Assembly: GCA_951799425.1 (NCBI GenBank)
Contig: OX637395.1
Coordinates: forward strand, 39,981,173 to 40,045,172
Reading direction: 5' to 3'
Length of the DNA stretch: 64,000 bases
From: Ilex aquifolium
Taxonomy: Eukaryota; Streptophyta; Magnoliopsida; Aquifoliales; Aquifoliaceae
Shown: piece after piece, positions 14,621-61,800 of the stretch
How the letters are laid out: each line of letters begins with the position of its first letter
How positions within the stretch are numbered: the first letter of the stretch is position 1
Notes under the pieces: generated by a model
The model's database searches: none
What the model was told of the DNA's origin: nothing
Seen by the model: the letters and a program-made list of their open reading frames with translations, nothing else
Position numbers and translations under genes: made by a program

Positions 14621-15051
14621 CCTCTAATGATTCGTTTGATAAAGTGGATAGAAAATGGAATGATGAAAAGTGAGTGATACACTTTTCATCATTCTAGGGA
14701 AGAATTTTTACTTCCATTCTTTGTGTTTGGTAAGAGCAATGAAAAATAGGAAGGATTCATTTTTTTATGTTTGGTAAGATGGAAAAATTAATTTTTTTAT
14801 TTTTTATTAAAAAAAATATATAAATATATATTTTACCATTATATCTATATATCAATTTAATGTATGCATAATATGTAATTAATATATATCATATATATTT
14901 ATATAATAAAGTACAATACAATTCAAATCTCAATAGATAAACAAAATGATTTTTACTTTTCGCGGTTGAGATCTTTTTAAATTTTACTTTAAAATTAATC
15001 CGATGGTTAATATTAACACCTTAAATTTAATAGGAAAAATAGAGTCATAAG

Positions 15052-15701
15052 CTATGAAGCACGGATACTTCGTTGAGGTTGACGTATCCGTATCGGATAC
15101 TTTACGGATACGATACTCGTCGGATACTCGTCCGATACGTATCGGATACACCTTCTACGTATCCGATAATAATTAAATATTAGGATACTTCACGGATACT
15201 TTTGTAGTCGACCAACATATATAATTTTTTAGTTGAACTTTTAACATCTCTTTTCGAATTTACATACCATACAATACATTAACAACAAATTCATATTACT
15301 TCAAAGGTACATGAGTGTTTTTTAAGTATTATATAAAATTACATGTCAAAAGAGTATAAAATAAAGTTATTACATTATAATTTTAGCAAAATTACTTCTA
15401 AATACTAGGTAAATATTAGCTTTGATTCCTTTAATTTGTCACTTCACTTTGTGAATATACCACAGCGATACGATATATATTTTCTTGAAACTAAAAAGAA
15501 TTACTAATTTTTCTTATTATATGTTAAAGAACTACCAAAATATATAAGTATTAAGTTGGTTGAAAATAATAAAAATAATAAAAATATTTTATTATAGCCG
15601 TATCTTGGCCGTATCCGTATCCTATTTTTTTAAGTTTTGCCGTATCGCCGTATCCGTATCGCCGTATCCCGTATCGCCGTATCCGTATCCGTGTTTCATA
15701 G
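15052..15701. mobile_element. hAT-like non-autonomous element made of CGGATAC repeats
   Basis: The termini are CTATGAAGCACGGATAC and, inverted, CTATGAAACACGGATAC. Both ends are flanked by the 8-bp duplication GTCATAAG (15044-15051 and 15702-15709), as expected for hAT elements. Subterminal regions (15080-15205 and 15595-15695) are dense in GGATACG/CGTATCC repeats. The centre is AT-rich without coding capacity. It disrupts the leader of Helitron H2, so it is younger than H2. Confidence 0.88.
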
Positions 15702-15785
15702 GTCATAAGGGTGTGTTTGAGATAACTTTTTATAGGACTTATAATTTCTCATAAGTATTTAAAAAAAAAAATTGTGTTTGGAATT

Positions 15786-16262
15786 GCCCCACCACTATCA
15801 CCACTACCACCACCATCACCACTACCACCACCACCGTCACCCCACCACAACCACCCCTCCACCGCCCCATCACCACCACCACTATCATCGTTACCGCCGC
15901 TACTACCCCACTACCACCTCTGTCACAACAATCCCTACCACTGTCGCCACCCCACACCCACCACTGTTACCGCCACCTTATCACCATTTCTACCGCCCCA
16001 TCATCACCACCGTCGTTGCCGCCACCACCACAATCACCACCACCCCCCATCACTACCCCATCACCATCATCCCAACCACCACCGCTGCCACTACCTTACT
16101 ACTACTGCCACTGTCCCACCATCATCCCTACTACCACCACCCCCACCCCTACCCCCACCCCCACCGCCCTACCACCACCATCATAACCGATTGTCGTCAC
16201 CCATCACCATCTTCCACCACCACCACCATTGCCATCCACCACCGCTCGCCTCAACTACAACC
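15786..16262. repeat. CCN triplet array inside Helitron H2
   Basis: C-rich CAC/CCA/CCC triplet array of about 480 bp. His/Pro/Thr-rich frames here are artefacts of the repeat. Confidence 0.88.
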
Positions 16263-16387
16263 GGATGCTTAAATTCCTTTCTCTTTTTTCTATCTTTGTA
16301 ATTTGATTTTGGGTATGAATACAAATATGTTTGTTGTTGATCATTTTTTTTTATTACTACGTGCCTTTAGGCACGGGAAATAATTAG

Positions 16388-17685
16388 TCTATATAATAAA
16401 GTACAATATAATTCAAATCTCAAAAGATAAACAAAATGACTTTTGTTATTCACGGTTAAGATCGCTTTAAATTTTATTTTAAAGTTAATCTAATGGTTAA
16501 TATTAACACCTTAAATTTAATAGGAAAAATAGGCCCCTAAGGGTGTATTTGGAATGACTTTTTAAAAGTACTTCTAAGAATTATTTCTCATAAGTACTTT
16601 AAAAAAAAAAAATAGTGTTTGAAACCGTCCCAGCACTACCTCTACCACCACCACCTCCACATAATCACTATCGCCACTCTACCATACACACCACCCCACC
16701 ACCACCACTATCGCCGCTGCCACCACCATCATCACTTCCATTGCCCTATCACCACCGTCCACCACTACCACCACCACCCCCACCCCCACCATCATCACTA
16801 CCACTACCACCATCGTCCCACCACCACCACTTCCACCGCCTCACCACCACCATCCCTAATCACCACCGTTGTCGCATCTTACCACCACTACTACTGTCCC
16901 ACTATCACCCCTATCGCCCCCACCACCAACCTCATGACCATCACAACTATCACCACCATCGCCAATCCACCATCGCCATTGCCCCACCTCCACCCCCACC
17001 TCATCCTCACTGCGCCACCATCACCACCATTGTCACTCACCACCGATTGCTACCATTGTCATCCATGGCCACCACCTACTACCATCGTCATCTTATTTTT
17101 ATATTTATTATCATTATCACCATCATCCCACTACCACCGTTGCCCACCATCGCTACCAGTCACTGTCACCTACCTCACCACACCTACCATCACCACTGCA
17201 GTCACCACCTGTCATCGCTCACCACTGCAGTCACTCATTGTCATTTACCCCCACAACACTTACCACTGCCGCCATTCGCCACCACTCATCACATTGTCGC
17301 CTAGAAGCACCCATCGTCGCCTACCACCACCACCGTCGTCGTCCCATCACCACTACTGCCAACCACCATCACCGTCGTCCACCACCACTGTTGTCACCCA
17401 CGGCTACCACTACCATCATCGTCACTCAAACCTACCACCACCATCACTATTGTCACCCACGACTGCTACCACCACCACGGTCGTCGCCTTACCCACCACA
17501 ACCATCACTGTTTCCCACCATCACTACTGTCGCCCACCAACACTACCACCGCTCACCCCCACTACAATTAATGCTTAAATTTTTTTATCTCTCCTTTATA
17601 TTTGTGATTTGATTTTGAGTGTGAATACAAATATGTTTACCATTTTTTTTATTACTCCGTGCCTTCAAGCACGAAAAATAACTAG
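16388..17685 (+). mobile_element. Non-autonomous Helitron H3 with the longest CCN array
   Basis: The 5' end TCTATATAATAAAGTAC begins exactly where H2 ends. The 3' end has the hairpin GTGCCTTCAAGCAC (17659-17672) then GAAAAATAACTAG, a canonical Helitron CTAG terminus, followed by T. The internal triplet array (about 16640-17570) is roughly twice as long as in H1 or H2. There is no Rep or helicase coding, so movement would need proteins from another element. Confidence 0.92.
16640..17570. repeat. CCN triplet array inside Helitron H3
   Basis: About 930 bp of CAC/CCA/CCG/ATC triplets. Long frames in this stretch are not genes. Confidence 0.88.
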
Positions 17686-18204
17686 TATATATATATATAT
17701 ATATATCAAATGATATATAGATATATATATTTCAACACACATAATTAATTTTTTTTATCAACTTTTCTTCCCAATTTTGGAGGGATTGATTTTGATGAAT
17801 TAGAAAGACAGTTAATTCATCTACTTTTTCATCTTTCATATTTTTCTTCGTTACCAAACACGATATTTTATTTATCCCCTAACTTTTAATTATTCCATTT
17901 TTCCATTGCACCAAACAAAGGATAAATCTAAAAGATCATTAGAGGCAATATGGTAAATAAAAATAAATAAATAAAAATATATGCATCGCAGCGGTTTGAT
18001 TCCTCCATAGGAAAAAGTGACAAAAAAAACTTCATTTTCAAACCCAACGTAGGCCAAGATGTTGCTTTAGGGAAAAGGGGGGACATCATTATGCTGTTAC
18101 AATTTATTTGGCTCTTTTGTTGAGTGGAAAAATCATATAGAATTATTTGACTCCATGTTTTATGGACTTACTAGGGTCAATATTAATGGGGGGCTTTGTT
18201 TTTA

Positions 18205-19101
18205 GGGTAAATTACACAAAATATCCTTGAATTTAAGGTCAATTACACACCACCTCCTTTAAGTTTTATTAATTTCACTTAACCCCTCTTACTTGTGAAT
18301 AAATTTGCAAATCTAATGGAATCCGTTTATTTTAATGACACAGATGTCGCAAGCACTAATTAAGCGCTTGTGTTATAAAATAATAATTTGTTTTCTACCT
18401 CCCACCACCGATTGCATCTTTACCCCCATCTCCTCATTTTATACCTCCCACAGTTGTTGTAACTCCTCCACCTAATCTACCCCCTGCTACAACTCCTCTA
18501 CCCAACCCTCGCCACGTCGTTACAACTCTCCATCTAACCTACCCCAAACCACTGTAATCCCCTCACCCCCCAACCCACCCACACTGCTGCAACTCCCCCT
18601 CCAATCTTTGATCCTAGATTTTGATCTTTGAATTTTTTTATTTTTTTTTGTTTGAGTTTGATTATGGTTCTTGACACAATGAATATGCAATAGATAGTGT
18701 GTTGATGGATGGTGTTGGGGAGGGATGTACCAGGGGAGCTGGGTGGCTTTTGGCTAGTGTGTCAATGAGGGTTTTGTGGTATTTGGGTTGGTGGTGAAAG
18801 GGGGAGTTTGGGGTGGGGGTGGACCAGACATGGTAGGGGTAGGACATTTATGGTTTTTGAGAGAGGGGTCTACCTATTTGTGAGTGATTTATTTGGGTGT
18901 TACGTTGTTGGAATGGATGATATTACAAAAAGAAATTAGAAGATAAGTGAAAGGCATTTTAGTCTAGTTGCAAAAACTGTTAAGTCAGTCATGATTTGAA
19001 CTTTATTCACAAGTAAGAGGGGTTAAGTGTAACTCGTAATTTGTCGAAGGCAGTGATATGCAACTAACTTTAAATTTAGGAAGGCTTTGTATAATTTACC
19101 C
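18205..19101. mobile_element. Non-autonomous Mutator-like element
   Basis: Terminal inverted repeats of about 100 bp begin GGGTAAATTACACAAA on the left and GGGTAAATTATACAAA on the right (reverse complement). Both share an inner block CTTAACCCCTCTTACTTGTG. A perfect 9-bp duplication TTGTTTTTA flanks the element (18196-18204 and 19102-19110), diagnostic of the Mutator superfamily. The internal 700 bp is C/T-rich on the left half. A 61-codon minus-strand frame there shows no domain. I see no transposase. Confidence 0.88.
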
Positions 19102-19441
19102 TTGTTTTTATTATGTTTATAGAATAAATATCATAATTAGTCCTTAAATTTTATTATTTATTTTAAAATAATTCTTAAATTTTTATATGTCTCAATTTAG
19201 TCCATTAATTATTAATTTTATGTCAATAAAATCTTTCCACCTATTTTCCAAGTTAGATTTAATGGAGCCAGATCGAGGTGTTTGTCACGTAACCGTCCAC
19301 GTCATGTACTTTTATTTGTTTTAAAGATTGAAATCAACATAAAGTTTTAATTAAAACAAAATTGACAGAGATGAAAGTTTATTGTTTATTTTATAATGTG
19401 AATCAAGACTAATTATAATATTAACAATTTTTTTATTAAGG

Positions 19442-27000: not shown

Positions 27001-30000
27001 TCAGGTTTTGGTGGCAGTCTCTGCAGCTTTCTTCAATTCAAGCAAGGCATCTTCAAAACACTTAGCTAGAACTTCAGGGTCAGGGATAATCTCTTTGGCC
27101 ACCAGGATTTGCATATCAGCTCTTCCTGCATAGCTCAACATGTGCATTGTAATTGCCTGCAGTACCAACATCAGAAAGATAGCCAACCTCCTGTTATATA
27201 TTATCAATTCCAAACAAATCTTGCCAATCGGGAAAACAAAGAGATTTGAGTTTAGAAGCTGTACATGAGGTAGGCTTGATGTATTAGCCCGAATATACAT
27301 TACTGGATTGGCAGCAATCGTAATTTCCTCTCGAGGGCCAAGCACGTTTGAGATCGTAAATGTCGTGTTACAAAGTATTCTGTAGTTGAGCATGCTCGCA
27401 AACTACAATGAAGACAAACTAATTAGCAGTTTACTCCTTTATGTGCTAAAACTGCATTGAAATAGAGCTTCTTCACCTTTGGTCCGAGGCAGGACATAAC
27501 TAAGTGCCCGATTTTGTAAGAGAAGAATGCCTCTAATGACAGTTTCTTCTGGTCAATCATCGCCTTTGCTCTCGTTAGAAACTGTAGAGGATCAGTGCAA
27601 CTTCTATGGTAATAAATAGGTAACAGAAGCATACCAAATTTGTTGCCCCACCGTGTCCCTGAATTGCTTCTCATCAACTTGGAAAGATCCTGATCACAAG
27701 TAGAGCATCGTTTCGATTCAAACCCAAAAATTGGATTTCGATAAATTTGTTATATTGAAGTACTAGTTATTATCTGTGCCTGAAGGCACAAAGTAAAAAA
27801 AAATGGTAAATAATAAACATATTTGTATTCATATCCAAAATCAAATCACAATCATAGATGAGAGATAAATGAATTTAAGCATCGGTTGTAGTGGGGATGA
27901 GAGGTGGTGGTGGTATGAGACGGTGATGGTTGTATGAGACGGTGATGGTTGTGATGGGTGGCAATGACCGTGGTGGCGGCAGTGGTGGTGGTGGTGGTGG
28001 TGGTGGCGGCGGGGGTGGTGGTGGTGGCGGCGGCGGCGGCGATGGTGGTGGCGACGACGACGGTGGTGGCGGCGGTGGCGGCGGCGGCGGCGGCGATGGT
28101 GGTAGTTGTGACGACGGTGGTGGTGGTGGTGGTGGTGGTTGTGGCGGTGGTGGTGGTGGTGGTGGTGGCGGCGACAGACGGTGGTGGCGACGACGACGGT
28201 GGTGGTGGTGGTAGAGGTAGTGGTGGGGCGGTTTCAAACAATATTTTTTTTTTTTAAATACTTATGAGAAATAATTTCTAGAAGTACTTTTAAAAAGTAA
28301 CTCCAAACACACCCTTAGGGTCCTATTTTTCCTATTAAATTTAGGGTGTTAATATTAGCCGTTAGATTAACTTTACACCCATATTAGCCGTTAGATTAAC
28401 TTTAAAGTAAAATTTAAAGCGATCTCAACCGCGAAAAGCAAAAGTCATTTTGTTTATCTTTTGAGATTTGAATTGTAAGCTACTTTATTATATAGATAAA
28501 TATTTAAGTTACATCATCTTCAACATCTAACAATTTAAGCTTTTTTTTTTGAGTAGATGGTTATTTAACATGATATCAAAGTAAGATGTTCTGTGTTCAA
28601 ATCTCACCGTCATCCTAATTATTAAAAAATTTCAAGTGTTAGGTTCAAAATCTAACTTATACGTGAAGAGGCGTTAGCTTAAACTTTTAGAATAGATTAT
28701 GATAAATTTTTGGAATAGATGGTTATTTTACTTGTTTTAATCATCAGATAAACGAATATTGCATATAAAGATAGAAAATGGTAAACTTTTGAAGTAGATG
28801 GTTGTTTAACCTGTTTTAATTATCGAATAAACGAATATTGCATACAAAGACAGAGAGAGAATAGTAAACTTTTAGAGTAAATGGTTGTTTAACCTGTTAA
28901 CTAAGAGAGAGAGAGAATGGTACCTGCAATCCTGATTGTGGCCTTAGATTAACCATGGCAACTCCTGTCAGTTGAAGCCCCTCTCGCAGAGCTAGGAGAG
29001 AGAGAGAGAGAGAGTTAAACTCAATTTAGTTAAGGTGATGAAAAATGTCATTGATAATGGAATGTAAATGAAAAGGCATTTTACCTTTCGGCATTCGTAG
29101 ATCCAGATATTTTGAAAGGCCAGAGGAAACCACCCCGAAAAGAACGTCGTTAATGGTCTGCAATGTTTTGTTCAATTTACACATTATTAAGCAATAAGAA
29201 CGGAAGTTAAACAATTGCATAATCTAGTTATAATTTTTATCACCAAAAAAAATTTAAATTTCAGTACGATAGCAACTTAAGTACCGTCTAGGAAGAACGG
29301 ATACTTTCCGAAAGGGTGTCGTGCCAGTGTCGAACAAGGCCTGACACAGTTAGAAGTATCCTAAATAGTGAACTCAGTCAAACACAGTCAATACACAACC
29401 AAGATACGATTAGTATATGTCTAAGATACGGCTATGATATGACCAAAACACGGTAAAAAAAAAAAAATTAAAAAAACAACAATTAACTAGTAAAAGATGT
29501 GTGTTTCTATTTTTTAATTATTTAACTTTTGGGTTAATTGCGTCTGTGGTCCTCAAAGTATTCATTTTATCTCATTTTGGTCCTCAACCTTCTAATTTCA
29601 TCAAGTTGGTCCCCAAAGTATTATAAATGCACTTACCTAGTCCCCGCCGTTGACGCCGTCCATAATTTCGTCTGTTCATAGTCATGTGCAATCTGCATGA
29701 CTCAACTGAGGGGCTTATATGACATTTAACCTTCTCCCATCAGTCTCCATCAACCCCAATTGACTATTCTTGCAAAACTCATGGCAATCCTCACATACCC
29801 TCAAATTCTTCACGATTCGAATGCACTCCCCAGACCCCATTACCAACAAACCAAAAGAAATTGCTAGCCTCTCACTGTGCTCCTTAATTGCATTCTCTTT
29901 TTCTTCCTCCCCTATATCATGTAAAACTGGTGAAACGTTTGGCAAGTAGCCAGCCTCTGCAATTCGTGTTCCAATAGTTTCAAGCATCTTATAAATCTCT

Positions 30001-33000
30001 GGAGATCTCTCGTGCTCACGGTCCCAAGCAACAAAATGATCAACTCTTCCCTGCGTTTCAATCAGGCTCCAGCCTAGAACTTTATTAGCTTTCCGACCAA
30101 CCATTAATCTTCTAACTTTAATTACATCTTCCCATTTCATTGATTTTGCGTAAATACTAGCTAACTGTACATAATTTTCATCATGATTTGGATCCAATTG
30201 TAGTAGTTTACAACCAATCTCTTCACCCAATTCTACTAACCCATGAACCTTACAAGCACCAAGTAGAGTTACCCATAGAACTGGATCTGGTGGAACTTGC
30301 ATTTTTTCAATCAATTCAGTAGCCTCACCAACAAAGCCAGCACGACCCAAGAGATCAACCATGCATCCATAATGCTCCATCTCCGGCTCAATGCCATATC
30401 TTTCGATCATCAACTTAAAATAGTTACGACCCTCACTGACTAAACCTGCTCGACTACAAGCATTCAAGACCCCAATGAAGGTCACATTAACTGGCCGAAA
30501 TCCTTCAATTATGAACATTTCAAAAACTGCAAGAGCTTCCTTCCCAAGTCCATGGGCTGCCAAACCACAAATCATCACATTCCACGTTGAAACATCTTTT
30601 AAGGGCATATTATTAAACAAGACCCTAGCTTGCTCAATCCACCCACATTTGGCATACATGTCTACAAGACTTGTGCCAATAGGCACAATCATTGGAATAT
30701 TCAAAGAATCTATAATGGAATGAACTAATCGACCATGTTCAAGCAAACCCAATTGGGCTGACGCCGAGAGCACCATCACCAATGCAGGCTCATTAGGTAT
30801 CAGCCCATTCTCTCTCGTTTCCTTAAAACACTCCAAACCTGCTTCTAACTGCCCATTTTGCACGTAACCCGTTATCATTGTACTTCAAGATACAATATCT
30901 CTTTCGGGAATTTCTCCAAACAACTTCTCCGCAACACCCATCTGCCCATCCCTGGCAAATCCCACCATCATCGCATTCCAAGTCACCACATCTCGGCAAT
31001 GAGGACTCTCACCAAACACCCTTTTTGAACATTCAACTCTACAACAAGCGTTATAGAAGTGTATCAAAGAATTTCTAATATAAATATCATCGCCAAAACC
31101 AAGTTTTACAACATGAGTATGCACTTGAGCGCCTTCAAGCAAAGCCAAAGCCTTACTGCAAGCTTGTAATACAAAAGGAAAAGTATAGTTATTCGGACTA
31201 ACACTGCTTCGGCGCATAGAATCGTAGAGAATGATGGATTTGCGTGGTGATTCGCTCTTTGCAAAGCAACGGATCATGTTATTGAGGTCGAAAACACTTG
31301 GCGCTTCGATGGTTTGGAAGATAGAGAGAGAATAGTCAATTGAGGTTGATGGGGACTGAATGGGAGAAGGCTAAATGTCATATAAGCCCCTCAGTTGAGT
31401 CATGCGGATGGCACATGACTATGAACAGACGGAATTATGGACGGCGTCAACGGCGGGGACTAGGTAAGTGCATTTGTAATACTTTGGGGACCAACTTGAT
31501 GAAATTAGAAGGTTGTGGACCAAAATGAGACAAAATGAATACTTTGGAGACCACCGACGCAATTAACCCTTAACTTTTATACTAAGAATGTTAATGAATG
31601 TAATGATGTTATAAAAATAGTGGATATATATTTTGATCTATTTCAATTTTAATCAAAAAAATAATATTTGCTAGGCATTTTTATTAATATTGTTATAATA
31701 TATTACAACTCTATTATTATTTAAAAATATATTATATTATTTTAATAATCATATTACTCATACCTTATATTTTTAAATTTTTTAATACCTCAATATTTGT
31801 TTCATATTTAAATATGACACCTGTACTTATATCCGTGCTTCTTAACCTATCACCTTTGACTGAAACCAAAAATGGAAAGAAAATATAAAAAACTAGATGA
31901 CCCATGTGGAGGAGTCAGAAAGGGTGGAGGGTGAAGCTGCAGCTTTTGACAATTTTTGAAGTTATTTATCTAATAACTTAGTACTGACGTAAATAATTTA
32001 TTTTTGATCAAATTAAAAAAAAAATTAATTCAAATATATGTAAATTAATTCAAATATACCTAACCATTAAAAAAAACTGTGGTGTTGTGAGACGTGACGT
32101 TTTCACAAACAAACAGTGGAATTTTCTAAGGCCCCGTTTGATAACGTTTTCGTTTTTCGTTTTTCGTTTTTTTTTTTTTTTTTTAGCGTAAACAAGAAAA
32201 AAAAACTCGTTTGGTAACCGATTTTATTTTTATTTTCTGCCACCGTTTTGTAAACGAGGGGCGATTTTCAAAAACCAAAAAAAGTCGTTTTCGATTTTTG
32301 TTTTTCGTTTTCGAAAAACGAAAAACGAAAACGTTACCAAATCAAAAACAAAAAAAAATCGAAAAACGTTTTCGTTTTTCGTTTTTGAAAAACAAAAAAC
32401 AAAAACGTTACCAAAGGCCTAAGTGTTTTTGAGGCCGTCCGAAAGTTGAGGTTGGCTTGCAAGTTACAAAGTCCACAAAAGATGAAAAACAACAAAGAAA
32501 GAGACTGCTCATCTCACAAGTGGACCCGATTTGCCAAACCGTCACTTTCTCATATAATGCCAGTAAAACACAAATTAGGGAAAGGGAATATTCAAACACA
32601 TCCACATAGGCTTGTTAATGTTGTGACGTATAATCTATGTATCGGATATTCTCATATCTATCCTGTTAAATTCGTGTAAACAATAGGACAAAACTGAAAG
32701 TATTGCATATAAATTAACCCATCAACCATGGAAAAAGCACAGACTTGACTACGGTACTGTAAAAAAAAAAATTCAGTACTATACCTATAAAATTTATTAT
32801 TTCAAAAAATATTTTTATAATTTTTTTGAGTCATTTTATAAATTATTTTTGTAAATATTTTTATCGCTGTTTTGTGTATTTTTATTACATTTGTAATAAT
32901 TATTTTTATCACTTTTCTTCAATATAAAAAAATTATCATTTTTGCTAGTAATTTATTATATTTGTGAGTATTTTTATCACTGTTGTGATAATTATTATTA

Positions 33001-35207
33001 TCATTATTATTTTTTAAATACTATAAAAATAATAAAAATAATTACAAATATAAAAAATAGAGATATTATACCAAAATTATTCACTCCAAAAAGCAGTCAG
33101 TGATTCTACAGCTCTCAGTAGTCTGTCTTATTGGGTTGCGTGGGGTTGGTTTGAAGAAGTAAATATTGAACCGTAATGTCAGGTCATTAATGAATAGCTG
33201 AGGATAGAATAGGGATAGAGACATTTGAGTAAGTAGGCAGCTTCCGGGATGCCCCATGGACGGGGCAACTGGGCCACTAACTTCGATTAAAGGTGGGTGG
33301 ATTCGCCTTTATAATCAAATCAAATTATAGTGTGTATTTTTAAATTTGTAACAAATATTAATTAATTTTAACTTAATTTATTTAATTAATCATATTCATC
33401 AACCGTGTCATTGGAATGGACATGGATGACCCATGGCCATGAATCCTAAATCCAAACCTATGTACTGATTTTTATCCCGAATGCTCCCTATACATTAAAA
33501 ATTTATTTAATCTATTTACTAGCAAAACTTAAGTAAACATAAATTTATAACATACAATATCTATGAAGAAATAAAAATAATCAAATATTTTCTTATACAA
33601 TATAATTTAAATAGGTTTATCATGCCAAAATCATCTAAACCCACGTGTTTATTATTCATATTAGTGAATCCCATTATTTTTTAATGCCCTCGAATACGTA
33701 TTGTATCAACAATTTGTGCTAAAAATTATCACTTTTTATGTATGCATTTTAAAACTTAAATAGTTATTGATCATATGATAGTAATATCATGAATAATTAT
33801 TAAAACGGTGTAACAAATATTTTATATGAATTTGAACACATTCCAAAAGCGCGGGGTTGGTGTGTGGGTTACCTAGGATGATAATTGAGCTGAATTCGAG
33901 CCTAATTTACACATAAACGAACTGGCTCATTTGACTATTTACACATAAACGAACTTAAAAAAATGTTCAAGCTTAGCTTGATTAACAGCCCTAGGATTAC
34001 CCCGCCAAGTCCACGTAGAACAAACATTTATCTTTTTTTTTTTTCAACAGAGTGTCTAAGTCAACTTACACGCGTATTTCAATTAACCTCCTCTCTAATT
34101 TGGTGAAGACAAATCATTCACACCGAATAAAACAAACATTTATCTAATGGATAGCATCGTGCTATGAAAAATATTATTTAATACCGTATCAAAATTATTA
34201 TTGTTATCAACTAAAATATATTTTAAATAATAAATTATAATTAATCAATTAATTAAGATTATTTATGATTGACATATAAAAGTATAAATTGACTTTCAAA
34301 AATTACAATTAATTGACTCTTTATAAAGTATCTTAATTAATTATAAAGGGACATTTAAAATTTAAAATTTTATTTTAAAAAAATATATTTTTCAGTCAAT
34401 TATATTCATAAAAATAAAATATTAACGGTCCTAAAATATGAAAACTTAAAGCATTAATATTAAATTTACCGCGTGAGGAACTGCCTTTTTCACCGCCTTC
34501 ATGTCGTCAAGTTGAAACTTCGCCGTCGCCAACTTTCTCGGCCACAGCTCCACCCCAGCACCACCGATCACGGCGGTCTTCTTATCTTTCAGCCACAAAC
34601 TCCTCAGCCCAAACTCAAACACAAAAATCAACGTATACCACAGCATCTTCACAAGCCTCCACACCTTCCCTTCTCTCTCATTCCTCCTAATACTCGTCGA
34701 AGAGGAACCGCCGGAGTTTACCGTCGCCGGCTGTGTAGGATCGTCAGCTTTTCTACAACACGATAAGAACATCGACATCAGAGAAATCCCATCTCCCAAA
34801 GCATGGTGGACTCGAAAAACAGCGCATTTTTGGGCCATGAGAAGGTGTATTTCCCACAAGGGCTTGTCAGTGCTGAATGGTGAAGAGAGTGACAGATCGG
34901 CCAAGTAGTCGTTGACTGCTTCTTCATCGTCGGCAGCGGTGTCTCCGTCAGACTCATGACGGACGATGATGTGCTGATCTAGGTTGACTTGTGTTCTTCG
35001 CCAGTGTTCGCGGCCGTGACGGTCTTTGACCATGAGGCTGCAGAATCTGGGGTGTTCAAGCAACATCGAGTTTCGAATTTGGGATTTAACGGCGTCGACC
35101 TCGATTGGGTTTTTGAGGCCGATGGCGCAGGTGATTATTGTGTTCAGTTCTGGCCGGAGGAATAGCCTTCCGGCCGGTGTTAATGGCTCATCACTTTCTG
35201 TAACCAT
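27001..35207 (-). CDS. Wax ester synthase/diacylglycerol O-acyltransferase (WSD1-like)
   Basis: It transfers an acyl chain from acyl-CoA to a fatty alcohol (wax ester) or diacylglycerol, typically at the ER. Exons in transcript order: 35207-34470, 29157-29085, 28991-28924, 27689-27477, 27402-27265, 27156-27001. They total 1386 nt, giving 461 aa, and all junctions are GT-AG and in phase. The acyltransferase domain holds the catalytic HHALGDG (residues 134-140, the HHxxxDG family motif). A hydrophobic stretch follows near 195-220. The C-terminal DUF1298-type domain contains TINDVLFGVV, TGVAMVNLRPQ and TTFTISNVLGP. Length is close to the usual 460-490 aa. Intron 1 is 5.3 kb and hosts a Pack-MULE and MITEs. 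Intron 3 hosts Helitron H4. The polypyrimidine tract of intron 2 is a (CT)n run. The frame is undamaged, so the gene is probably functional. Confidence 0.93.
27763..28496 (-). mobile_element. Non-autonomous Helitron H4 in WSD intron 3
   Basis: On the minus strand it begins TCTATATAATAAAGTAGC at 28496 and ends with hairpin GTGCCTTCAGGCAC, then AGATAATAACTAG at 27763, followed by T. The triplet array (about 27900-28230; GGT/GGC on plus) is shorter than in H3. The leader has a small internal duplication of TTAGCCGTTAGATTAACTTT (about 28356-28402). Gly- and Val-rich frames here are artefacts. Confidence 0.92.
28991..29014. repeat. GA microsatellite at the WSD intron 2 acceptor
   Basis: (GA)n on plus, hence (CT)n on the transcript strand. 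It ends directly at the acceptor of exon 3, so its length could affect splicing. Confidence 0.7.
29531..29770 (+). repeat. Left terminal inverted repeat of the Pack-MULE
   Basis: Inverted match to 31329-31569. It contains the stop codon and the last ~16 codons of the captured PPR frame. Confidence 0.95.
29715..31277 (-). pseudogene. Captured PPR protein segment (PLS class, E and partial DYW)
   Basis: Successive PPR repeats (VVTWNAMMVGFARDGQMGVA, DVSTWNVMICGLAAHGLGKE) are followed by E motifs and a DYW-deaminase part. That part has HSERLA (HxE zinc/catalytic motif) and CEDCHEF (CxxCH) but lacks the terminal segment ending in DYW. In plants these proteins edit C to U in organellar RNA. The frame is continuous over about 520 codons except for one TGA at 30885-30887, where the PPR motif normally has Trp (DIVSW). 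The first ATG is at 31277, but homology continues upstream to the TIR edge (SIFQTIEAPSVFDLNN), so the targeting peptide and first repeats were not captured. The last residues (SQLGLMETDGRRLNVI) are encoded by the TIR. It is a truncated, probably non-functional copy. The parent gene is outside this window. Confidence 0.88.
31329..31569 (-). repeat. Right terminal inverted repeat of the Pack-MULE
   Basis: Inverted match to 29531-29770. It begins, on the minus strand, with GGGTTAATTGCGTCGG. Confidence 0.95.
31579..32129. other. WSD intron 1 sequence, no gene seen
   Basis: Very AT-rich intronic DNA. No exon or clear repeat boundary. Confidence 0.5.
32130..32419. mobile_element. PIF/Harbinger-like MITE in WSD intron 1
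   Basis: The ends are GGCCCCGTTTGATAACGTTTT and, inverted, GGCCTTTGGTAACGTTTTT, flanked by the 3-bp duplication TAA typical of Tourist-type MITEs. The interior is built of CGTTTTTCG-like units in both orientations and can fold into long hairpins. The frames in it are artefacts. Confidence 0.75.
32420..34469. other. Remainder of WSD intron 1
   Basis: AT-rich intronic DNA. It contains one copy of a dispersed AT-rich element (32753-33075, listed separately). No exon seen. Confidence 0.5.
32753..33075 (+). repeat. AT-rich dispersed element, copy 1
   Basis: It resembles 46605-46965 throughout: ATTCAGTACTATACC-like start, TAAAATTTATTATTT, then repeated ATTTTTATCACTGTT units, and an inverted end GATATTATACC. 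Probably a degenerate MITE. Confidence 0.5.
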
Positions 35208-38200
35208 GATGGATAGAGAGAGAAAGGCCCTTTCCGTTTTGTTGGATTTGGTCCCAAGGACAATCTAGTTATAGAAAGGAAAGCCAAAACATGTTCTGGA
35301 AGTGATTGTTAAACTTACCCACAGGTGCATTGAAAATTCTATTATATTTTTAATGCTGCATTTACTCCCACTGCCATGCCATGCCATGCCGTTCTTGTCT
35401 TAAAGTCTAAGCAGGCTTTCAGCTTATCTTGTTACTCCACAAGAGCTTGTGTCTCACTCACAATCAATTTACCCGTACTTTAACTTTCTTTCCAATTGGC
35501 GTACTTTAACTTTCTTTCCAATTCGATCCCTTATCACTGGCCCCAAGGCAACAATCTGACACACATTCAAGTACTATAAAAGAGGAAAAGTTAGAGTTTG
35601 TGTATTTACAACATCTTCTCGATCAAATACGAGATTAAATCAAAAATCGAAGTCTGGTACACAAAAATCGACCAAATACAGGTATTCCCCCGTGTGAAAA
35701 GACTATTTTTATGAATCAATATGTAGCGTTTATCTTTATTGATGTGTTCAGATTATGAGTATGAACATTCATTGGAAGAAATTTATTCATCCACTAGTGG
35801 CAAAACAGAGCCATCCTTAATAAGCTATTGATCAGTTCTATTCTTGCTCAATAGAATGAAATCTTATACGATAGCTGTGAATAGATATCACACATAAACC
35901 TATTGGCACCACTTGCATATAATGAAGCTGAACATGATAAGAAATTTAAAAGGCCACAACAATCTGTCGTCATCGTGCGAAGCCATTAGTTTGTCAACAA
36001 TTTAGTTTATCGCGGCAACATTCAAAAAAAAAATGCAGCAAATACATATTGCCATTTACATAACCAAAACTTACCACAAGTTTCAAAATACCAGTTGGAA
36101 CACCAAAGCAGAAGCTACATGTTAAAGTACATGAATGTGCACAAAGTAAAACATGAATACTTGGCCAAAGCCTTGTATTCAACACCATGCAGGCCTTGAA
36201 ATGGAGGAAAATTCGTACCAGTTCATAGATTTCACTGAGAATTCTTCAGCAGTCATGAAAGTATTAGATATAAAAACAAATCTGGCATACAAGACTGTCA
36301 TCAAAGAAACAAAGAATCCACAATACCTTAAATGTGCATCTACCAAATACTTTCATATGAATAGTCACTAATAGCAAAAAGGATAAAGCAAGTTCCTGAG
36401 GGTAATCACTGAACTAATATACATCAAAGTATTTCGATTAAGGACATCAGAAGCAAAATTGGTATTCAGATCTTGAATAAAAGGAGATTTGTACAAAGCA
36501 ACAGACATATATTAGCAGAACAATAACACTATCATTGGAGTATCTAGCAAATTGCAGAATGTCAGCCTGATCTTCACTATAACACAATGGCAGACCAACA
36601 TATTGCATCATATTTCTTAAATTCATCACCAGACACAGGAGGCTAGCATAGATTCTAGTGTTGCAATTGGATCAATCAGGCATTACAACCATAGTTGTCT
36701 AGATATGCTGCTTCCATACACAAATACACATATGCATACATAGTTTCAGTGCAGACATCCGTATCATATGGTAACCACTAAAGCACGAATCTGTGGATGC
36801 TCAAATTACGGTTTTTTTAGTTTTCTTTTTTGAGAACAGTTATTTTGGTCCAATGTAGTATCTGACAGCAATACCATAAGAGTGATGTTTCCTTTCACTT
36901 TGGTGCTGTCGAGAAGAATGGTTACAATGGCTACATAACGTCAGAAGCATATATAGAAGTAGCCTGTGAATATGATTGTGTTGTCCTTGAAAATCAGATA
37001 CTTGGCTTGGATAAAGATCAGTTGTTTTTCAAAACTCATTCACGATTTAGTGAATATCTAGGATTAGTGTCACAGCCCAAATTTATCAGGAAACGTCCAT
37101 TTAATAATAAAATATAAGTTCAGAAAAGGTCATGCAGACAAGTAACTGGAAGGAAACATGGCCTCCATTGACGATGTTTAGGTTATGCATTACCTCTCTG
37201 AATTAGTCTTATTTTTCTGTATTAAGTTGAAAAAGAATTTACACGGTCCAGACTCTAGAATTTCAAGCAGCCAATACCTTCAAAACTAAGGATGAGTATG
37301 ACAGGTAACATAAACCAGAAAATAGCTTCCACAAGAATTTACAATAAATTCCAGCTAATCAAACCTTTTATCTTTATCTATATAATAGGTTCTGTGTATT
37401 TATGTCCAGTAAATTACAAAAAAATGATATGGGCAATATATTAGATGAACCTGCATAGAGTAAATACGCATTGAAAGATTAAGAACTAAGAAATATTTAA
37501 CCACCCAAAATGCCAAACCCGAATAAGAAAACACCAACAGCACTGGAGGATAAATTGGAGAAAAGACACAAACACATTATGTAATATGCAAACATGCTTG
37601 ACAGGAAAAAAAAATCATAGACCAAAAATTAACAGCTGATTAATATATCAAACAAATGTAGCATCAAACAATAGGAGTCCCAGTAAGGATCCAACACAAC
37701 TGTTGACAGAAACACGTCCCTGGTATTAAACCCAATTCACTTTAAGACTTTCAAGTGGGAAAATAGTAGTAAAATGCCGAGCATAGAAACACTACTTATG
37801 AATCAATCACAGAAACACAAATAAAACCCTAAACCAACCACAGCACTTGCATACTTATAAATCAATCGAAAAATAAAAACACGCATATAGTCATAAATAC
37901 ACCAGCACCAAATGACTTGTAAACACATTAATCCACCACACCACTTAATCATTTATAAAACATAAATCCATCAGAGCACTTAATCACTTAGAAATCAACA
38001 AACAAACCATATACATAATACGCAAAAGGCCAGCTTAAATTTGTATTAACCAAAAACAATAAGGGGTATATACACAAAAGGCCAGCTTAAATTTTTATTA
38101 ACCAGAAACTATAGAAAAAAGAGGGGGGGGGTACGCCGGCCCTTTATATCAGATAAGCCAAAACATAAAAAGATTAACTGAAAACGAGAACATGACAAAC

Positions 38201-39952: not shown

Positions 39953-42900
39953 TTTGGAATTTATAGAGAGGCTCGAAGGTAATACAAGCATCATCTAGGG
40001 TTTCGATTTTTGCTGTGATTCTTCTTCTACTTGTTTGTTCTTGATTCCAGTTCCTGCTGAAGCATTATTATCTGCTGAGGTATTTTCATTTTAATTTGCG
40101 TTTTATACATAATATGATTAACATTGATGTTTTGAAAAATTACTTAAATTGAAAGTTAATTGTCGGAATTTCGATGTTACTCACTGGAATTTACATTTCA
40201 ACGTTATTTTCTATAGTTAACTTATATTTTGAAATTAGTTTCTAAGTTTTGTTTTTCATGTTACTGTTAGTGCTTTTATTAGGAATTAGTATTGATTAAT
40301 TTTTGTTTTTCCTTTGTCCTTACCGAAATTCAATGTTACTTATCGGTGTTCGTATCGCGACGTTCTTCAACAGAATATTTTTTTTTTTTTTTAATTATGT
40401 TTTAAGTTTATTTCTCATGTTACTGTTTGTGTTTTAATGAAATCAGAATTGTTTATGTTTGTTTTTCTATTTTCATTTTACCTTTTATATTGGTTTGTTT
40501 GGTTTTAACAGATGGAGGATAACATATTGGTTTGTTGCAAGTATTGTTCTGAGACTGTTGTGCTAAGAATCACAATGAATTCCACAATTGATGATTTGTT
40601 ACATGGGGTGTGTGACAATTGGAATGGAGTGTGCTCATGCCACCAATGGCAGATCAACGGTTTATCATGTGCCCATGCTGTGGCCGCAATTCAAAAGAGT
40701 GGTATGAACATCAATGAGTTTGTTGATTACTTTTATCAGGTTACTACTTATAGACTGTGTTATTCTGAGGCTAAACACCCTATTCCTACACTCGGTCGTC
40801 CTGACTTTTCAGCGGTTGACGTTGATATGTTGCCACCATTGTCAAAAAAACAACTAGGCCGACCAAAGAAGCGTAGATTTAGGCCTAGAGGTGAGCTTGT
40901 TAGGAAAATTCATTGTGGTCTTTGTGGCCGTTTAAGTAGTCATAATAAAAAGACTTGTAACGAGCCATTGTAATATTCCGTATGTTTTTTTGGAATAAGA
41001 TATTACTTTATTTTTTCAGCTATTTGTGTTTGTCATGTCACACATTGGAAATATCATGGGTTATACAATGTGATAAGTTAATAGTGTAGTATTATCCTTG
41101 CATGGTCAGTATATTTTTCATGTTACTGTTAATGTGACCCCAATGATACTATTTAATGCTCATGTTAGAGATTAACTAATGTTACTTTGTAACAAGGATT
41201 TTGTGTGATTGCTTAATTTGGAGAAATTTAAATCATGTTACTATACATGTTACTTTGTTTGGATAACCAAGTATGAAAGAGTTTTCAACTGTTTTTCAAA
41301 TAAATTATACAAACAATACTTAGCCATGTGAATAACAACATTTACATTCTACTAACAACTTTATTTCAGCATTCTAGAATCATATAGAATTTGTAATCTA
41401 GAACAATTTTTTATACATGTTACTGTTTGGGTTACTATTTGAATAACAATGTAGACAAAGTTTCATTTGTTTCACAAACATTCCATTACAATCAAATATC
41501 AACCACCTAACAATTACAACCAATTTCTAACCAAATATCAACTACCCAACAATTACAACCAATTTTCTAACCAATCCTGTAATTAGCCTAAAAATGAATA
41601 TCTATCGCACACATTAGTGCTTCTTATTTGTCTTTGTATCTCTTTCTCAATCTTGCTCTTGTCTTGTAATCTTCAACAGTCCATGCATTTCTATGGTTTA
41701 TGAATGTAGAGACCATATCGATCCGTAGAGCATTCAGTTGAGGTGGTTTCAATTTCTCTTCTATTTGTTGTCCACGAGCAAGCTGCTACATAACATTAAC
41801 ATGACATCTGAAATATCAATGGCTGAACAACATACAATAACATTATCTTAGTAACATGATCATAGTAACATTAATTAATAAACTGAATCCCAGCATCACA
41901 TTCTTAGAATCATCACACAAACACAATTCAGTAACTTCATTTTTTCAATATACAATTGATTCCATTGCAGATTCATTGAGTTCCCATTTTACATTTAAAA
42001 TCAAACAACAACCCCTAAACTCTTCATAAGCAACATATGCTGCATTAAAAGTGAAAAACCAAAAAAGGTTTGATCAGTAACATCAATTTGTCAGTAACAT
42101 CCACAGTACCCAAACACATCCATACATTGGAAACATGAAATCAATTTTTTAGTTATCACACAGTAACATGAAAATTTTCAATGTACTCTTGAACCAGTGG
42201 TTTTCGAATTTCTTGAACAAAGAAGAAAGCAACAAAAAATTTACATATCTAATTATATAACACATTGATTAAGTAACATTAACATGAACAGTTCCATCCC
42301 CAAGGCTATGTTATGCACAGTAACATCGAATTTCGAAAAATTGATAGTAAAAAAACAATTCAAAATTGATGTTACTGTCATGTACTAATGGTAACACGTT
42401 GTTAATGGTTGATTTAGGACACTTAACACATAACAATAACATCAACATATCGACATTAAGATAATATATTTTGAAAATTGCTCTCACAGTAACATGAAAA
42501 ATTTCAAAGAAACCACACCAATCAACTTCAAATGTATTACAAAACGAAGAAAAAAAAATCATAATACCTAATTCTTTTATGTAGTAACAAGAAAACAACC
42601 AGTTTTCTTTTCAAAAATTTAAATAAATAAAAAATCGACAGTATGAACGATATAGGTTGTAGATGTTGTTTTAAAACCCTAAAACAAACATCAAAGTTCA
42701 TGTAAAATCACATACCTCTCAATTTTTTAAAGAATCTCAAAGCTTTGTGAAGATTTCAAGAATGCCGAGACCAACTATAACTTTTCGCCAATGAAGCTTG
42801 AAGAGTAAAATCGATTTTTGGTTTTATGGTTTGAAACCAGTTAGAAATTTGAATTTATTTGGTTTGGGTAATGGCGGTTTATGTTTTTCAAAGAAGGAGA

Positions 42901-57455: not shown

Positions 57456-58085
57456 TCATAAGTTCTGATGTTCATTGTTCATCTGTTGAGCTTCCCAGTC
57501 TTCTAATGCTCGTAAACAGATTAAGTCTTCTTCGATTTCTTCTAACAGATCCTCCAATTCTATCATATCTAGAAAGCCATTCTCGAAATGCGTATGAATG
57601 AAGTCAATCGGCCACGAAGATGGAAACGTGTTAACAACAGCGTACAACATTATTGGATTATTCGGACCAAAACCTTTTTGTCTCAGTTCTCTAAATAATG
57701 ATTCTTTCTTTTTTATATGGTCCATGACATCTGATTGTGGATCCATTTTCTCTGTCTCAAACTGTATCCACAGTGGATGGATCTTGCGCTCCGCTTCTGC
57801 TAATAATTGTATAAATCGTACCGCACAGGTTGGTCGGTCGTGATTAAAATTTTTTTCCTTTGCAGAATCCCAGGTGGTGGGAAGGGTCTCTGCTATTTTC
57901 TGCATAATATAATTTTCACTTATGTTTTTCCCTGCATTTTGCAGCATACGACCTAATCTAATTTTTTCAAACCCAAACTCTGAGATTGGGGTTCCATCTT
58001 CAAAAGAATCATTTTCAAATTTATCTACTATGCTTGATACTGCCAAACGCATACTACGACGTACATAGATGGGAGGGCATTCCAT
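57456..58085 (-). CDS. 209-aa ORF with two copia-gag-like modules, inside the Helitron
   Basis: Intact frame. Residues about 48-100 (NAGKNISENYIMQKIAETLP..TW, then FIQLLAEAERKI) follow the pattern of UBN2/copia-type gag domains: a G-x-x-I-S-E segment, a hydrophobic helix, LP-x-x-W, then a leucine/acidic helix. Residues about 118-192 (DHIKKKESLFRELRQKGFGP, then VNTFPSSW, then IELEDLLEEIEEDL) repeat the same pattern. There is no zinc knuckle, protease or reverse transcriptase. It lies about 390 bp downstream of the small spliced gene and about 780 bp downstream of the helicase stop, within the 3' part of the Helitron and on the same strand. A splice-acceptor-like ATGTACAG precedes the ATG. The gag relationship is inference from pattern and could be wrong. 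I know of no standard Helitron protein like this. Confidence 0.6.
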   Translation of the reverse strand: MECPPIYVRRSMRLAVSSIVDKFENDSFEDGTPISEFGFEKIRLGRMLQNAGKNISENYIMQKIAETLPTTWDSAKEKNFNHDRPTCAVRFIQLLAEAERKIHPLWIQFETEKMDPQSDVMDHIKKKESLFRELRQKGFGPNNPIMLYAVVNTFPSSWPIDFIHTHFENGFLDMIELEDLLEEIEEDLICLRALEDWEAQQMNNEHQNL

Positions 58086-58477
58086 ATTATCTGTACATAA
58101 TATAAAAATTACAAATTAAATTGACAATAATAAAATTAGCAACAGTTAACTGGATCCTTACAACAATAAATTTTTTTTTTACTATCACATGTGATCTAAT
58201 ATTATAAGAATAAGAACAACAACACACCAATAACAATAAGATAATAGAATAATTAAAATGTTCATGTTATTATTCATTGTTGCAATATTATTCTTGATAA
58301 TCATAAACATGCAACAATTAAACCAAGAAGATAGACAATAAATATAAATCCATGCATATGAATAAAATTCAAAGAATCTTAAAATAGTGTGACTTATTCA
58401 TGATAATCATAATCATTGCAGCTTGTGATTGAATGTAGTATTAAACAATATAATTAATGATTCAATCTTCCAGTAGT

Positions 58478-58867: not shown

Positions 58868-61800
58868 TTATAACAAAACTTCAGGGTAAACGATGTTTGA
58901 TGTGCAATTCGACGCATCTTCAGGAAGAAGAACACTTATACGATCAGAAGATGTACATCTGGATAGTGCCACATACAGGTGTCCATGGCTAAACACTGGT
59001 ATGCGCAAATCAACTCCAACGAATTTGACAGATTGCCCTTGAGATTTATTGATTGTCATAGCATATGTTAAGCGCACAGGAAATTGACGTCTTGTCATTT
59101 GAAAAGGTAATTCCGAAGAGGATGGTGTAAGTGATATTCTTGGAATGAAGACTAAATTGCTTGATAATGGTCCATTCAGAATCTGAGCTTCAATGACACG
59201 CGAGGCACATCTGACAACCATTAATCGTGTGCCATTACAAAGCCCATCTTTTGGCGCCAAATTCCGCAACAACATTATTGGGCTACCCACTTTTAACTCC
59301 AACTTAAACGGCGGTAGTCCTGAAGGATTTAGAGAGTTTAGATACTCATTCGGAAAACGGTTCATGATAGCATGATCGAGTTCCTCATCTTCTGAAATTT
59401 TGTCTGCAGCTAAATATGTAATAGTCTCACCAAGGGATATATTCAATGCTGCAGCATTTATAGAACTAACATCATCATTACGTGCAGAAAGAATTGTACG
59501 TTCAGTTAGATAATCCTGGGTCACTGTACCAACCACATCTAAACGCGGGTAAATTCTGAATATCAATTCTTCTAGATTATGACATTTGTGTATTGTTGAT
59601 GGAAGTTCTATGATTTCTTCTGGATTGGTCCCAACCTAAAATTAAAATTGGGAAGTTAATTGAGCGAAAATGAATAAATACTAATGAAAAGCAATATTTC
59701 ATAAAATTAATGATGAATAAATTATTACCTCCATTAAAAAGTTTGCAAATGCAGCATTTCTAAAATCCGTATGAGTTAAGTGCATGTTTAAACCCAGAGT
59801 CAAAACATGTATATCCCTCCACAAAAATGATCGCCTCAACGATGCACCCACAAATTGCTCGCGGACTCCTCTCGGTATAACTGGCAAGATTTGTCGAAAG
59901 TCTCCGCCAAGCACAACAGTAATACCCCCAAATTGCTTTTTATTATCACGAATATCTTGAAGGGTGCGATCCACTGCCTCAACACAATGTCTATGTTGCA
60001 TAGGTACTTCATCCCATATTATTAGTTTTGTTTTTCTGAACAATTCTGCATGCATCGATTGTTTGGTAAAGCCACAAATTGAATTCTCAAGCACATTTAA
60101 GGGAATACAAAATGTTGAATGTGTCGTGCGGCCTCCCATCAATAATAAAGATGCAATGCTAGAAGAAGCAACAGTAACAACAATATGTCCAAGGCTACGC
60201 AATTTCGTTGCAATTGTATTGTACAAAAATGTCTTCCCTGTCCCGGCACCCCCACTCAAGAAGAAAGTAGTTCCTATATCTTGAAACACTGATGAAGTGA
60301 TTTCAGCATAAGCAACGTGTTGTGCATCATTTAGGCGATCAACATTACTTTGTGCATCTGACTGTTGAGCTTCATTCTGGAGTTTTTGATGCTCAAACAA
60401 TAGTCTATTACCAACTATTGAATTCCAATTTCCAATCGGTTGCGGCATTGGTGGGAAGTCAATTAAGCTTTTGCCTGACTCGTGGAGCAATTGATTCAGC
60501 AAATATAAACCATAATCTTCGATTTGATCCTGAGTTGGATTTGAAATACCAAACATTGTACGAATCTTGGGTTTAAGATCATCACATATATGCACTAAAA
60601 ACTGGTTCCATAATGCAAGTGGATATAGCGGAGAGCATTCAGTTAGAATAATACCGAACAATCTCCTCAACTGGTGTCCCGTTTTCATAATTGAAGCCTC
60701 TTGAAGACATTGTATCCATTCAACATCATCTTCTAGAAGACCTCTTGCAACACATGTAGATTTGAAAGAATCATACATAACGTTGTTTACTGTGCACAGG
60801 TTATCAAATGATGTTGGTCATTTGACAATTGTTAGTAGCAAACGCAAATAAAAACGCTCACCTGAATTTGGGCTAGCAAAGTACATCCTGCAAATTGCGT
60901 ACCCCCTTTATCTAGGTGTCCATATTGTGGTTTTCTTGTTCCAAACGAATTTTTCTGGAAATTCTTGATAGGTTAATGCACGTGCAGATTCATTCTTAGC
61001 ACAACATTTAAAGAAACCAGTCAAAGTTGTATCACGTTGTGCACCTCTTGAAATGATTGATTCAATCGATTCGTCCGAATTAAATACAACACGATGCATC
61101 CCTGGTAAATGAAGTTCCAAACGTATAACCGATGGAATCTCTTCATGTAAAGGATTACCAAATATTCGCCAAGCAGCCTCTAGAGATCCAATATACCTTG
61201 CATCAAGATATTGTTGAATTTCATTTCCTCCGCCCAACACCATAGTGGTGCGATCATGGCCTTTATAAATGTACTTATGGATGTATTTCACGCATCTTAT
61301 TCCCGCACAAACTTCCACATTAATGTGACAGTTGAACATTCTTGAAAGATAAGGATTGTATGGCACGACATCCCTATTATCAACTTCTTGGCCCCTAACA
61401 GTATAAACATGACTGTTATCACGACGACGATAAACAGGATATCCATTATCGTCCATACTTGTTGATTCTACAAATGTCCGAGGGTACTTCTTAGTACATA
61501 CACCATTTTCCATACATGATGCATGTGGATTTCGAACACCACATGGTCCATGTACCATACAACTCTTGATCGTATCAAAAAGAAGAGGATCTTTGTCTGG
61601 ATCAGGAAATTCAGCACACACTACCTTGTCTACCTGAGAACATGTCTGTATTTTGTCTAGACCATGAAGGAACAGGAGTGCATGCATGTGTGGTAACCCT
61701 CGTTTTTGAAATTCGATCGTGAAAACATGTGCCACCTTTTTACCAAATATGTTTTTCGTCTCTATCATCTTCATCAAAAACCTCCTCTTTAACTCAAAAA

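Follow-up and report, generated by a model that had tools for sequence, protein, structure and literature searches.

Pack-MULEs are reportedly among the gene-capturing elements of plants, as described by Jiang et al. in 2004. According to PMC3310237, MULEs typically have terminal inverted repeats (TIRs) of 100-500 bp and a target-site duplication (TSD) of 9-11 bp, and 2853 Pack-MULEs are tabulated there for rice alone. Regarding the uptake of unlinked sequence by Pack-MULEs, the matter is presented as unsettled. PMC8277862 considers gap filling as well as fork-stalling with template switching, and PMC13317346 leaves room for an undiscovered mechanism where unlinked genes are taken up.

In the 64-kb stretch of DNA analysed here as a whole (the window), a 2039-bp element at 29531-31569 is, with high confidence, a Pack-MULE that has captured part of a PPR-DYW gene, and it lies in intron 1 of a WS/DGAT, wax-synthase-like gene. 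An earlier note, made from the letters of this DNA, had already filed the element as a Pack-MULE of the Mutator superfamily, and the structural features, namely the TIR length, the 9-bp TSD and the PPR-DYW piece, support that filing.

Terminal inverted repeats, target-site duplication and classification

The inverted ends of the element are 240 and 241 bp long and 94.6% identical. Their alignment, when recounted, has 241 columns, with 228 identical positions, 12 substitutions (9 transitions and 3 transversions) and 1 one-base gap, in agreement with the near-identical 240-bp TIRs and the dozen or so differences that had been claimed. The perfect 9-bp duplication of the same claim is found as well, since TTAACTTTT occurs as a perfect direct copy on both sides, abutting the TIR ends:

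29522..29530, no strand: left target-site duplication TTAACTTTT, 9 bp (sequence)
29531..29770, plus strand: left terminal inverted repeat, starting with GGGTTAATTGC (sequence)
31329..31569, minus strand: right terminal inverted repeat, sharing 94.6% identity with the left one (alignment)
31570..31578, no strand: right target-site duplication TTAACTTTT, 9 bp (sequence)

The chance of one such 9-mer match, as calculated from the base composition, is about 8e-6, and among 61,941 window positions tested a 9-mer repeated at the element's spacing was met once, this being the element's own TSD. Inverted-repeat pairs of at least 60 bp and at least 75% identity, lying within 20 kb, number seven in the window, and the TIR pair of the element has the highest identity among them. 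An exact duplication of 8-11 bp, at most 3 bases from the ends, accompanies two of these seven pairs, this element and the pair at 18204-19102; for random position pairs, an exact 9-mer match within the same tolerance was obtained in 12 of 20,000. The positions 29770 and 31329 are the borders of the inverted repeat, from which the borders of the capture could differ. In GC content, the interior (0.417) exceeds both 1-kb flanks (0.32 and 0.28). Rfam at gathering threshold gives 0 matches, and no further copy of the element's TIR is present within the window.

The second element, at 18205-19101, ends with GGGTAAATTAC and GGGTAAATTAT and carries a 9-bp TSD, TTGTTTTTA, on both sides. When the ends of the second and the PPR-bearing element are compared, they are similar (GGGTAAATTA vs GGGTTAATTG), and the arms of the second element are more diverged, having 75.7% identity over 111 columns. 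Thus, elements with such ends moved earlier in this genome, and the second element, with its own 9-bp TSD, supports the Mutator filing. A SWIM-domain fragment is also located at 40509-40973, having no link to the TIRs of the element; among the 25 longest of 32 pairs, the inverted repeats around the SWIM-domain ORF reach 83 nt at most, with 70-90% complementarity.

Within the left TIR, TGGTCC/TAGTCC motifs are placed at 29547, 29578, 29607 and 29638, with a spacing of 31, 29 and 31; the whole window has 22 such matches on the plus strand, and four of them are those in this TIR. As stated in PMC3310237, MURA binds a motif of ~32 bp in the TIRs of Mu, and, as a guess, the repeats in the left TIR can be regarded as putative transposase-binding sites. 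The TTGGTCC motif together with a Mutator terminal inverted repeat was not found in the open-licence papers searched, and a search for the TIR-start letters in paper text gave, among the matches listed, no title on MULEs. The exact TIR-start pattern has 0 matches in viral_contigs, a viral collection which carries little weight for plant DNA.

Regarding the classification, the TIRs of 240/241 bp and the perfect 9-bp TTAACTTTT fall within the limits given for MULEs (100-500 bp and 9-11 bp, respectively; PMC3310237), and the interior holds a fragment of a cellular gene with no transposase domain listed by Pfam (E up to 0.01) in the two interior frames scanned. The superfamily is therein a putative assignment, read from the TIR length, the TSD length and the terminal bases. 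The same structure could be taken as a Pack-TYPE element from a TIR superfamily other than the MULEs, as gene capture has been described for hAT, CACTA, PIF/Harbinger and Tc1/mariner elements (PMC8903248), a grapevine CACTA with a PPR piece is on record (PMC2528002) and the grapevine hAT element Hatvine-6, with a TIR of 13 bp, is listed with a 9-bp TSD, showing that TSD length is not absolute (PMC2528002). However, the TSD at this locus is exactly 9 bp and not the 8 bp usual in hAT, the TA of mariner, the TTA/TAA of PIF or the 3 to 5 bp of CACTA (PMC2528002, PMC8903248), and the TIR is 240 bp long and starts with GGGTTA instead of CACTA, making an origin from these superfamilies very improbable compared to a MULE.

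The captured PPR-E-DYW segment

The interior of the Pack-MULE, 1558 bp at 29771-31328, is open on the minus strand in a single frame of about 519 codons but for one TGA, and the frame, continued into the TIRs, can be read from 31370 to 29715:

29771..31328, minus strand: captured PPR-E-DYW coding segment, cut short at the C-terminus and probably also at the N-terminus (Pfam, frame)
30885..30887, minus strand: lone in-frame TGA stop, between IVS and STMITGY (translation)

The Pfam matches in the interior are PPR, PPR_1, PPR_2, E_motif and DYW_deaminase, with E-values of 1.4e-31 for PPR, 6e-10 for E_motif and 1.4e-20 for DYW_deaminase, and PPR repeats are matched both before and after the TGA stop. 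A PPR coding interior of 1.56 kb, as claimed earlier, is thus recovered, interrupted by the one TGA and with a true edge that could lie inside the repeat.

At the C-terminal side, the DYW_deaminase match covers only positions 1-62 of the 93 of the model. The best solved relative is the synthetic PPR-DYW protein 9kfx (612 aa), to which 371 residues are aligned without gaps, the alignment ending at its residue 580, 32 residues short of its end; the segment upstream of the TGA aligns from residue 2 of 9kfx, with one extra residue in the frame of the window. The captured frame retains HSE and a single CxxC with an H after it, which we take to be the residues of the catalytic zinc site, and the missing end of the DYW domain would presumably carry a further zinc site along with the DYW tripeptide. 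Approaching this edge, the frame reads CEDCHEFCK and then passes directly into the TIR.

At the N-terminal side, the TIR continues in frame into LSIFQTIEAPSVF. The first Pfam match is located at frame residue 24 (about 31301), and the nine codons adjoining the TIR have no Pfam domain match of their own, so the coding status of these first nine codons rests on the open frame and not on homology. The innermost ~15 bp of the TIR at this side translate in frame as SIDYS, which, as we assume, resembles the usual run-up to a PPR motif. As SIDYS is in frame with the PPR part, the capture edge could fall inside the repeat; these ~15 bp may be TIR sequence, gene sequence or, as microhomology, part of the two at once.

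The earlier note had placed both breakpoints inside the coding region of the parent, and the two edges differ in what they allow to be said of this: on the DYW side this is well supported by the coverage of the model (62 of 93) and of the relative (580 of 612), while on the N-terminal side a break within the coding region is probable, judging from the frame. That the parent would be intronless is judged solely from the frame being unbroken. Frame residue 32, within the PPR part, is where an in-frame ATG first appears. Considering that the TIR part has no in-frame ATG, that the DYW domain is truncated and that there is one stop, the captured piece probably has no protein function today.

Age and constraint

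The divergence of the TIRs, K, is about 0.052, computed on 239 sites (240 on recount). A dating derived from it, of 2.0-10.5 million years at rates of 1.3e-8 to 2.5e-9, was dropped. The reason is that the TIRs of MULEs, according to PMC3276141, need not be identical at insertion: maize Mu13, shown there to transpose, has an identity of 92% between its left and right TIRs. Consequently, a divergence of 5% fits a new insertion as well as an older one, and the fairly recent insertion that had earlier been read from the TIR identity loses its basis as a date. Meanwhile, a young age is compatible with the perfect TSD as well as with the nearly open frame.

One stop is seen in the captured frame, compared to 1.2-1.9 expected at the central rate and 0.6-3.1 over the rate limits, and the neutral probability of at most one stop is 0.45-0.66, the stop count being uninformative on selection. 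The alignment without gaps over 371 residues of the synthetic consensus is mildly suggestive, as the whole piece, without constraint and at the TIR rate, should have gathered about 3 indels, a rate that derives from a single TIR gap. These lengths without a gap, and the about 519 codons in one frame with a single stop, are what a working or once-working PPR gene, mobilised as a gene and constrained after its insertion, could leave behind. Such a gene is nevertheless extremely unlikely here, because its DYW match lacks the last third of the model, its first in-frame ATG appears only at residue 32, inside the PPR part, its frame is cut by the TGA and its upstream part has one extra residue relative to the consensus; in addition, one stop falls within the neutral expectation, and the indel expectation has the narrow source given above.

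Hardly credible as well is a PPR gene copied here by dispersed duplication or as a retrocopy and lying by chance between two inverted MITE copies, for although inverted-repeat pairs exist elsewhere in the window (7 in all), each TIR adjoins the PPR frame with no evident filler in between, a perfect TSD stands at the outer ends, no poly-A or UTR is seen by eye at the inner edges and, also by eye, no separate TSD was noted around each TIR arm.

The host WS/DGAT gene

The wax-synthase intron in which the insertion had been placed is confirmed in outline, with a WS_DGAT_cat exon on one side of the Pack-MULE and a small exon followed by WS_DGAT_C on the other. The PPR frame has the same orientation as this gene, of which the following parts are described:

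34470..35207, minus strand: host exon 1, which codes for the WS/DGAT catalytic domain, with its ATG at 35207 and its donor at GCG|GTAAAT (Pfam, splice site)
29158..34469, minus strand: host intron 1, 5312 bp, containing the element (predicted, with splice sites read from the sequence)
29085..29157, minus strand: host exon 2 (TINDVLFGVVSSGLSKYLDLRMPKG), with GT-AG borders (by eye)

The Pfam matches of the gene all lie on the minus strand, WS_DGAT_cat at 34446-35264 and WS_DGAT_C in the ORFs 27423-27749 and 27001-27402. The ORF of the exon at 29085-29157 has no Pfam match, and we take it to be a WS/DGAT exon by its resemblance to plant WS/DGAT proteins. For host exon 3, neither of the two acceptors examined gives a continuous frame upstream of DLSKLM. 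A dispersed repeat, aligned with three other copies in the window, crosses the first of these acceptors; GTGCCTTCAGGCAC is common or nearly common to all four copies, and the likeness fades just before the coding part of exon 3. As this repeat runs through the first exon-3 acceptor, the host gene looks, from its sequence, to have been damaged by the dispersed repeat and not by the PPR-bearing element, and it may be a pseudogene. A gene for a filament-like plant protein (FPP) is also detected in the window by Pfam, and, taken together with the PPR-DYW and WS/DGAT genes, it points to a plant as the host.

Proposed origin and significance

The locus would be explained by a non-autonomous Mutator-like DNA transposon, whose long TIRs are probably recognised in trans, the MULE transposase being encoded at another place, and whose interior would have been copied, at the DNA level, from an internal part of a PPR-DYW gene. 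Gap repair or template switching presumably brought in this piece from a parent gene at another locus, and the element would have been inserted into intron 1 of the WS/DGAT gene, duplicating 9 bp. Between mechanisms of uptake, a single locus cannot decide.

Regarding its present effect, the element most likely has none, or acts through small RNAs or at the transcript level on the parent or the host gene. Since the PPR piece within the WS/DGAT intron is oriented in sense, it might also be co-transcribed with that gene, and then be spliced as new exons or feed small RNAs repressing the parental organelle RNA-editing factor; this is highly improbable, and, if true, it would link the transcription of a lipid gene to an editing factor.

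By itself, the locus repeats a known phenomenon, and elements of this kind are common in plants. It is a clean example of the capture of a gene piece by a MULE in which the two inner edges can both be read. Its capture junctions, and whether capture or insertion came first, would bear on how Pack-MULEs acquire unlinked DNA, as this question is put in PMC8277862 and PMC13317346.

Comparison with known systems

The element is like the Pack-MULEs of rice, maize, tomato and Arabidopsis in having long TIRs, a TSD of the 9-bp class, no transposase and a piece of a cellular gene inside, as they are characterised in PMC3310237; it differs in its captured gene, which is of the PPR-DYW editing-factor type. 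No Pack-MULE with PPR-DYW content was found in the open-licence literature searched, and one may be in print elsewhere. The search for relatives of the PPR protein in viral_contigs and genome_contigs (viral and prokaryote) gave one pattern stretch each, neither of them confirmed, which is what plant DNA would lead one to expect in such collections.

Cactavine-5, a CACTA element from grapevine, also has PPR coding sequence within a DNA transposon; however, as given in PMC2528002, it belongs to the CACTA superfamily, has 23-bp TIRs, a 3-bp TSD and a transposase ORF of its own, and the 3' UTR of the PPR gene is part of what it captured. In its dimensions, the element is close to maize Mu13, described in PMC3276141 with a length of 1494 bp, TIRs of 223 bp with 92% left/right identity and a 9-bp TSD. 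The two differ in the ends of the TIRs, which are GAGATA in Mu (PMC3276141) and GGGTTA here, and Mu13 further differs in being active (PMC3276141).

Other mobile elements and the state of the host gene

18205-19101: second MULE-like element, besides the Pack-MULE at 29531-31569
40509-40973: ORF with a SWIM zinc finger (domain match E=0.00015)
57456-58115: fragment of a Copia-type gag (Retrotran_gag_2 domain match, E=4.8e-7)
58868-63163, minus strand: interrupted Helitron (Helitron_like_N, PIF1 and Pif1_2B domains)
905-1800, 14878-17705, 27746-28505: dispersed repeat family

The second MULE-like element is recognized by its ends (GGGTAAATTAC and GGGTAAATTAT), its inverted-repeat arms, having 75.7% identity across 111 columns, and the 9-bp target-site duplication TTGTTTTTA. 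It lacks a long ORF, the stop-free stretches reaching at most about 77 aa. The SWIM ORF is probably a C-terminal relic of a MULE transposase, and no convincing terminal inverted repeats were found when its surroundings were searched. Regarding the Helitron, its Helitron_like_N domain is divided between two ORFs, and the gag fragment adjoins it.

The cores of the repeat family are long imperfect (GGT/CCA)n, with about 68-95% identity between paired matching pieces. The copy at 27746-28505 reaches the WS/DGAT wax-synthase-like host gene, where its end, beginning GTGCCTTCAGGCAC, crosses the apparent acceptor of the third exon. In addition, the frame of this exon is not continuous upstream of the residues DLSKLM, so this WS/DGAT gene may have become a pseudogene.
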